NCBI RefSeq assembly: GCF_003751635.1
Contig: NZ_RJVI01000001.1
Location: 846,726 to 910,725, forward strand
Direction of reading: 5' to 3'
Length of the DNA stretch: 64,000 nucleotides
Source of the DNA: Inmirania thermothiophila
Lineage (GTDB): Bacteria; Pseudomonadota; Gammaproteobacteria; DSM-100275
Below the pieces are notes generated by a model, which made no database searches, was not told the origin of the DNA, and saw only the letters and a list, made by a program, of their open reading frames with translations. The position numbers and the translations under genes are program-made. Below are positions 20,795-21,149 of the stretch, one piece after another; within the stretch, counting starts at the first letter, position 1, and each line of letters opens with the position of its first letter.

Positions 20795-20887
20795 GCGAGG
20801 CCCCCGGTGGCCGAGCGGACGCCCGGGCCCTGCGGGGCCGGCGAAGGTTTCAGAACGGAGAGGTGCCGGAGTGGTTGAACGGGGCGG
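20795..20887 (+). repeat. direct repeat, copy 1 (93 bp, includes tRNA-Ser 5' part)
   Basis: This 93 bp stretch is identical to 20997-21089, offset by 202 bp. It contains 62 bp of upstream sequence (GCGAGGCCCCCGGTGGCCGA onwards) and the first 31 bases of a tRNA-Ser gene. The identity breaks at the anticodon arm. Confidence 0.95.
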
Positions 20888-20989
20888 GTGAGCCCCGACC
20901 GAAGCTCCGGTGGAGCTTCGCAGCGGGGCGAACGCCCGGCGCGAAGCGACGGGCTGGGCCCCGAGCGCAGCGAGGGGCGAAATCCGTTG
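20857..20989 (+). pseudogene. broken tRNA-Ser copy interrupted in the anticodon loop
   Basis: The first 31 bases match the functional tRNA-Ser at 21059 exactly. Then 90 bp of hairpin-rich sequence (20888-20977) takes the place of ACT in the anticodon arm. The match resumes for 12 bases with CGAAATCCGTTG at 20978-20989, which covers the anticodon CGA and the 3' strand of the anticodon stem. The rest of the tRNA (variable arm, T arm, acceptor 3' strand) is absent, so it cannot give a functional tRNA. Confidence 0.85.
20892..20978 (+). repeat. cluster of three REP-like hairpins inside the broken tRNA-Ser
   Basis: Three palindromes follow one another. The first is GCCCC/GGGGC enclosing a perfect 9 bp stem CGAAGCTCC-GGT-GGAGCTTCG. 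The second is GCCCG/CGGGC around GCGCGAAGCGA. The third is GCCCC/GGGGC around GAGCGCAGCGA. The repeated loop theme GCGnAGCGA looks like bacterial REP/BIME units. No other copy was noticed in the window. Confidence 0.75.
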
Positions 20990-20996
20990 GCGTGCC

Positions 20997-21089
20997 GCGA
21001 GGCCCCCGGTGGCCGAGCGGACGCCCGGGCCCTGCGGGGCCGGCGAAGGTTTCAGAACGGAGAGGTGCCGGAGTGGTTGAACGGGGCGG
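20997..21089 (+). repeat. direct repeat, copy 2 (93 bp, leads into the intact tRNA-Ser)
   Basis: This is identical to 20795-20887. Here the sequence continues into a complete tRNA-Ser gene. Together the copies define a 202 bp tandem duplication unit with the junction at about 20990-20996. Confidence 0.95.
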
Positions 21090-21149
21090 ACTCGAAATCC
21101 GTTGTACCCTCCGCGGGTACCGTGGGTTCGAATCCCACCCTCTCCGCCA
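21059..21149 (+). tRNA. tRNA-Ser (anticodon CGA)
   Basis: A complete 91-base class II tRNA: acceptor GGAGAGG with CCTCTCC, anticodon loop CTCGAAA (anticodon CGA at 21093-21095), a long variable arm (TACCCTCCGCGGGTA), T-loop GGTTCGAATCC and an encoded CCA. It reads UCG codons. Its own upstream 60 bp are part of the duplication and hold no obvious promoter, so it may be read through from the start near 20790. Confidence 0.97.

Follow-up and report, generated by a model that had tools for sequence, protein, structure and literature searches.

A Palindromic Element in a Partial Copy of a tRNA-Ser Gene of Inmirania thermothiophila and Related Copies Beside tRNA and 5S rRNA Genes in Other Genomes

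Results

An intact tRNA-Ser(CGA) gene of Inmirania thermothiophila is preceded by a partial copy of itself that breaks off in the anticodon arm and runs into a row of palindromes. We analyzed this locus within a window of 64,000 nucleotides (the whole stretch of DNA under consideration) and compared it with other genomes. The palindromes are probably a copy of a non-autonomous palindromic element family, here named the GTGAG element, whose insertion would have been coupled to the duplication of part of the gene. Members of the family share a conserved core with covarying stems, recur across genera, are associated with RNA genes, follow rules of junction and orientation, and in the traced cases lie where the gene has been restored by duplication.

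The Locus Consists of a Broken and an Intact tRNA-Ser Gene

A repeat search of the window found an exact direct repeat at a spacing of 202 bp, made up of 63 bp of upstream sequence and the first 31 nucleotides of tRNA-Ser(CGA) (Table 1). The preliminary description of this locus had the spacing and the exactness right but gave the length as 93 bp, where 94 nt were measured. It had also placed the element in the anticodon loop; the arm is correct, but the break, between nt 31 and 32, is in the anticodon stem, on its 5' strand. Nucleotides 32–34 are missing, and behind the insert the gene resumes with CGAAATCCGTTG, followed by 6 bp (20990–20995) up to the second repeat copy; in all, 108 bp separate the two copies. 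The succession of 90 bp of palindromes and 12 matching tRNA nucleotides, and the presence of an element within a partial tandem copy with an intact gene surviving alongside, were thus as first described. ARAGORN called the intact gene, with the anticodon CGA at position 35, but not the upstream copy. Compared with shuffled sequences, the insert folds better both as DNA (z −2.2) and as RNA (z −2.8). Since the first G of the core is common to the tRNA, the element proper begins at 20888.

Table 1. Features of the broken tRNA-Ser locus, in coordinates of the window.
Feature	Position	Strand	Evidence
Direct repeat copy 1 (63 bp upstream and tRNA-Ser nt 1–31)	20794..20887	+	100% identity over 94 nt
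Truncated tRNA-Ser 5' part (nt 1–31), ending in GG	20857..20887	+	match with intact gene
Insert of palindromes, 90 bp	20888..20977		
Conserved core	20887..20934	+	R1 model 64.6 bits over full length, E 1.2e-15; sole match in own genome; covariation, 25 sequences
Core: GGTGA	20887..20891		
Core: stem a	20892..20897/20924..20929		
Core: ACC	20898..20900		
Core: hairpin b	20901..20919		
Core: GCAG	20920..20923		
Core: GAACG	20930..20934		
Second palindrome GCCCG-GCGCGAAGCGA-CGGGC, then TGG	20934..20957	+	direct reading
Third palindrome GCCCC-GAGCGCAGCGA-GGGGC	20958..20978	+	sequence reading, RNA fold
tRNA-Ser nt 35–46, 12 nt after insert	20978..20989	+	repeat search
Direct repeat copy 2	20996..21089	+	repeat search
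Intact tRNA-Ser(CGA)	21059..21149	+	ARAGORN; Rfam tRNA 59.3 bits

A chance origin of the repeat is excluded because it is exact over 94 nt. Assembly error is an unlikely source of the duplication, since the locus lies inside a 1.16-Mb contig and a like architecture occurs in unrelated genomes. In the comparison, the order is represented by this genome alone (2.6 Mb in five contigs, completeness 99.85%). Upstream of the locus, ispB is followed by tRNA-Pro(CGG) (19631–20680), an arrangement kept in nine of ten ispB loci of other genomes. No tRNA-Ser was called in the ispB loci of relatives that were examined, and the event is therefore not datable by synteny.

The intact gene had been thought to depend on a promoter in front of the broken one. 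This idea found no support: both copies carry the identical 63 bp upstream, and a promoter scan of the locus returned no sigma-70 site on the + strand. A sigma-70-like match (TTGACA-18-TAGCAT) was located at 20746–20717 on the − strand, upstream of ispB.

The Insert Is Not a Dispersed REP of This Genome

The hairpins had initially been taken for REP sequences dispersed in the genome, and a search for a REP-associated transposase had been suggested. The genome bears out neither. The full 90-bp insert matched the genome once, and hairpin patterns of the GCGNAGCGA type with up to three mismatches gave 29 + 23 matches as compared with 27 + 20 for the reversed control; a shorter pattern gave 53 + 41 against 56 + 65, its two exact matches being those inside the insert. 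With counts this close to the reversed controls, a dispersed REP family was rejected for this genome. The R1 covariance model described below likewise matches here a single time, compared with up to 11 times in other genomes. No match to the Y1 (RAYT) transposase family (PF01797) was found in this genome, while the family is present in 216 of 369 genomes of the class. The GTGAG element thus resembles the REP and BIME sequences associated with Y1 transposases in being short and palindromic and in forming some tandem arrays (L107, L186, L197), but differs from them in being single-copy here and in lacking a Y1 gene in the same genome; its conserved head presumably also differs from that of REPs. 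As neither a Y1 nor a reverse transcriptase match was obtained in this genome, the copy looks like a fossil or like one moved by host functions.

The Core Is Conserved and Its Stems Covary

The core motif reads GGTGA, stem a, ACCG, hairpin, CGCAG, stem a, GAACG. The first palindrome of the insert resembles those found in the genome G011. A gapped pattern, GGTGAGN{4,7}ACCN{12,30}CGCAGNNNNNNGAACG, occurred in 22 of the 369 class genomes, as compared with one match for the reversed control. Four of the 30 listed places (L098, L101, L104, L114) were chance matches in coding sequence and were removed before model building. The search pattern leaves the stems nearly unconstrained, so that pairing was scored on sequence left free. 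Among 25 aligned copies, 94.0% of the cells in stems a and b were paired, versus 62.8 ± 2.1% after shuffling; the covariation score was 0.798 versus 0.193, and 76 cells versus 22 had changed on both sides. Stems slid out of register were paired at 27–40%, none reaching 40%.

The covariance model R1 matched in 37 of the 369 class genomes, belonging to 34 of 272 genera, and in five of 398 genomes of a phylum-wide sample, our genome among them. The copy in the window has both stems together with GGTGA/GAACG and ACC/GCAG. The weakest places are doubtful, and one of them (L198, 23.8 bits) looks like a chance match in coding sequence; the 85 copies counted below are the 96 model matches minus the 11 weakest. 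In the loci scanned, the core was covered by no family of Rfam 15, and in the open-licence literature neither the core nor the junction rule was found described. A reading of UGA/GAA in the core as a hammerhead-like or kink-turn motif was dropped after inspection by eye.

In simple traced cases the element measures about 80–150 bp. After the core, most copies carry a tail consisting of a hairpin and YGG, often with a second hairpin next to it. The loop of a hairpin downstream of the core holds GGA in 51 of 70 distinct copies, compared with 13.7 ± 3.3 in shuffles. Such loops recall the binding sites of CsrA/RsmA, which here are putative. In the window, the second palindrome occupies the position of the follow-on hairpin and YGG, and the usual GGA loop is absent from this copy.

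Eleven copies were seen in each of two genomes. In G066 (e.g., L172, L174), eleven near-identical composite copies have extra hairpins on both sides; none lies near a called tRNA, and the genome has no Y1 match. The contig C1 of G626 (L201, L205–L214) also contains eleven core copies, several of them in tandem arrays of about 150–200 bp and some placed in another palindromic repeat (CCCCGCTTTCGCGGGG), within its 3' arm.

Traced Copies Abut Partial RNA Genes at a Common Junction

An intact tRNA gene lies within 450 bp of 32 of the 85 copies in the fetched loci, in 19 of the 37 genomes and with 11 isoacceptor labels according to the nearest gene; a rough estimate from about 45 tRNA genes in 3 Mb, which is not a computed control, would put the chance expectation at about one to two copies. 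The other 53 copies have no intact tRNA within this distance. In the traced cases, a partial tRNA gene (Ser, Asn, Gly, Arg, Pro, Met, or Thr) or a partial 5S rRNA gene abuts the GGTGAG end; another palindromic repeat is a further kind of site (G626), and the remaining copies are in intergenic or unassigned places. Among the 5S cases, the intact gene alongside was identified by Rfam at L182, while L183, L187, and L152 were recognized by eye. Partial 5S rRNA 3' ends joined to the core with an intact 5S gene alongside, as at L182 and L183 (G268) and L152 (G354), are a trap for rRNA annotation. The suggested comparison with other genomes thus did turn up the same kind of event, in relatives as well as in unrelated genomes.

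Exact-seed comparison located both the direct repeat and the RNA gene for 22 copies. Where the intact gene has GG/A or GG/T (the slash marking the break), the broken copy has GG/GTGAG or, in place of GTGAG, GTGAA, GTGAC, GTGGG, GCGAG, or GCGCA. The breaks fall after nt 19 in the D loop (Asn, Gly, Arg), nt 61 in the T arm on the antisense strand (Met, Arg, Pro), nt 47 (Met), nt 42 (Ser-GCT), nt 51 (Gly-CCC), nt 87 of 5S rRNA, and nt 31 in the window, where the junction is GGGGCGG/ACTCG with a direct repeat of 94 and the intact gene alongside. At L160 (Thr), GG/T was read by eye, the script having placed the break 5 nt early. All 11 distinct contexts show GG/W, which is expected at 12–23% of positions given the last G (product 4e-9); the statistic was computed conditionally because the first G is part of the search pattern and the last G is favored by it, and the 11 contexts come from loci with entered gene coordinates, each gene and position being counted once. 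One weak copy (L204, 32 bits) is an exception, with GGG/C.

Orientation follows a rule as well. Among the 32 copies near an intact tRNA, 17 lie upstream in sense and 14 downstream in antisense orientation; the fragment at the one remaining copy is that of a different tRNA, relative to which it also obeys the rule. Therefore, it is the truncated gene that the GGTGAG end meets, and the tail points toward the intact one. Truncated tRNA copies found within 500 bp hold hairpins in each displayed case, as judged by eye, and partial copies with hairpins lie beside intact tRNA-Ser genes in G009, G011, G012, G019, and G025. At one locus of G011 (L064, contig C104, about 2233–2450, − strand), two 5' parts of an apparent tRNA-Arg stand in tandem, each passing in its D loop into GGTGAG hairpins whose loops hold GGA; tRNA-Ser(GCT) units of both kinds are adjacent.

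The Direct Repeat Makes Up for the Lost Gene Part

In all 16 traced cases, the direct repeat covers the length needed to rebuild the RNA gene, one of them being 1 nt short at an encoded 3' (CCA) end. The excess over this need is at most 3 nt in eight of the 16 and at most 9 nt in 11, and amounts to 14–75 nt in the other five; with an excess of 63, the repeat in the window belongs to these long cases, unlike the tight ones. Needs of 47 and 51 nt correspond to repeats of 48 and 53, which neither a fixed nor a freely varying target duplication would predict. A constrained permutation test of repeat length against the distance to the RNA end gave p 0.014 with only 138 valid permutations, so the relationship is suggestive only. 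In eight of the 16 cases, the repeat stops no more than 3 nt from where the mature RNA does; this outer edge is at the 5' side for sense copies and at the CCA end for antisense copies. Five loci without an exact-seed repeat, some of which show tRNA fragments by eye (L112, L113, L118, L158, L167), and six that lie in arrays or have no annotated gene (L152, L160, L169, L107, L191, L192) are outside the set of 16.

Proposed Insertion and Alternative Explanations

We propose that the GTGAG element inserts directly after GG and before A or T in hairpin-forming DNA, chiefly in tRNA and 5S rRNA genes, and that insertion would be coupled to the duplication of the adjacent gene part, leaving an intact RNA gene on the tail side and a truncated one on the GGTGAG side. 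In I. thermothiophila, the target would have been the anticodon arm of tRNA-Ser(CGA), with the loss of 3 nt and a duplication of 94 bp. The element would move as DNA, with the duplication as part of the insertion event and the core probably recognized as a folded single strand. The target may likewise be read as a hairpin, because the traced targets are arms of RNA genes or a palindrome and both strands are used; the outer edge of the repeat would be fixed either by the RNA end or at the foot of the folded gene. As for a partner, a Y1 gene is present in 30 of the 37 element-positive genomes (tallied by hand) versus 186 of 332 others of the class (Fisher p 0.004); this association is weak, and Y1, found neither in our genome nor in G011 nor in G066 with its eleven copies, was rejected as a necessary partner.

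The duplication might instead have come first, with unequal recombination producing partial tandem tRNA copies and REP-like elements later landing harmlessly in the dispensable one. Such an order of events would account for the intact gene never being struck and for the 12 tRNA nucleotides retained behind the insert in the window, as if this copy had already been truncated at entry. Yet the fetched loci, a small and non-random set, showed no hairpin-free truncated copies near tRNAs, and the tracking of the RNA end by the repeat length would be left unexplained; we regard this order as unlikely. Somewhat less likely still, the units may serve as functional RNAs that are co-transcribed with the tRNA and released as structured RNAs like those of the RtT family, perhaps binding CsrA/RsmA through their GGA loops. 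The excess of these loops and the covarying stems agree with such a role, as does PMC4986893, which reports that RtT RNAs derive from tRNA transcripts and that two were detected on Northern blots. However, the 14 downstream copies are antisense to the tRNA, so that a single transcript cannot serve both, and our copy is without the loop.

Insertion with coupled duplication also has to be weighed against two further routes. If the cDNA of an element RNA had jumped to, or been primed by, the end of a mature tRNA or 5S rRNA, the duplicated piece would stop at RNA ends, as the close outer edges in half of the traced cases do; but the same edges would come from nicking a tRNA cruciform at its foot, the repeat in the window extends 63 bp outside the tRNA, and reverse transcriptase matches were obtained in only 13 of the 37 genomes searched, ours not among them, which makes this route improbable. 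It is far less probable that a phage or integrative element once attached at the tRNA gene and left the insert as its remnant. Such elements do leave one intact and one partial tRNA, as seen here, and partial tRNA copies of this origin are reported in PMC9897764; but they measure 9–23 kb in the archaeal cases of that paper and would have an integrase and kilobases of cargo between their att fragments, whereas only 108 bp, 90 of them palindromes, lie between the repeats here. The GTGAG element moreover enters many arms on both strands, with an orientation tied to its own polarity. It was not matched in the phage set, and its sole plasmid match is partial and inside trbG; a phage-borne element was rejected as well, since none of 23 pattern matches in viral contigs has a fully paired stem a.

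Relation to the RtT Repeats

The closest known thing is the RtT family (Rfam RF00391), the repeats of E. coli tyrT. Our copy is built alike, with a tRNA fragment and hairpins in tandem with an intact gene; the two families share units with rows of hairpins with GNA loops, often in tandem, and several tRNA-Ser genes of this class have RtT-like units at their sides. The two differ in the arm that is broken, the T arm in RtT and the anticodon arm in our copy, and in the repeated piece, which is the 3' end of the tRNA in RtT and the 5' part, nt 1–31, in our copy. The GGTGAG core as defined here is absent from the RtT consensus, and the RtT covariance model had no match in our genome (E ≤ 0.001) or at the locus itself (L001, E ≤ 5). 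Among the class genomes, RtT matched in 65 of 369 at E ≤ 0.001 and above the cut-off in 23, with E. coli among the controls; ARAGORN found a tRNA in 19 of 20 RtT loci fetched. In four of the five genomes with partial copies beside tRNA-Ser, the downstream 3' tRNA-Ser copies gave full-length RtT matches below the gathering threshold of 45 bits (42.2, 33.5, 31.8, and 28.4 bits).

A wider reading, which we put forward tentatively as a fair way short of probable, would see in these repeats an unnamed class of mobile structured elements specialized in structural RNA genes. Its members would enter either strand of tRNA and 5S genes at GG/W sites within loops and arms. The chemistry of insertion would recopy the gene up to the mature RNA end, so that essential genes are occupied without loss; RtT would be a second branch. 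If this is true, it offers a new answer to the question of how mobile DNA finds safe sites, with essential RNA genes being entered and left whole, and it could account for how tandem repeats of tRNA fragments, such as RtT, arose. The core model, the GG/W junction, and the orientation rule would together serve as an annotation signature for false extra tRNA and 5S genes.

Arrays of both kinds occur side by side at L115 (G346, contig C229, 1501–1883), where three copies of tRNA-Arg(CCG) follow one another: the first consists of nt 1–19 joined to the core, the second is nearly whole, its T loop holding what by eye is an RtT-like array of hairpins, and the third is intact. At L023 (G019, contig C1, 1067–1592, − strand), two tandem units of 217 bp each contain nt 1–38 of tRNA-Ser(CGA) and, behind CTCGA in the anticodon loop, an array of hairpins; these arrays resemble RtT, with no match to its model, and another array of the T-loop type lies downstream.
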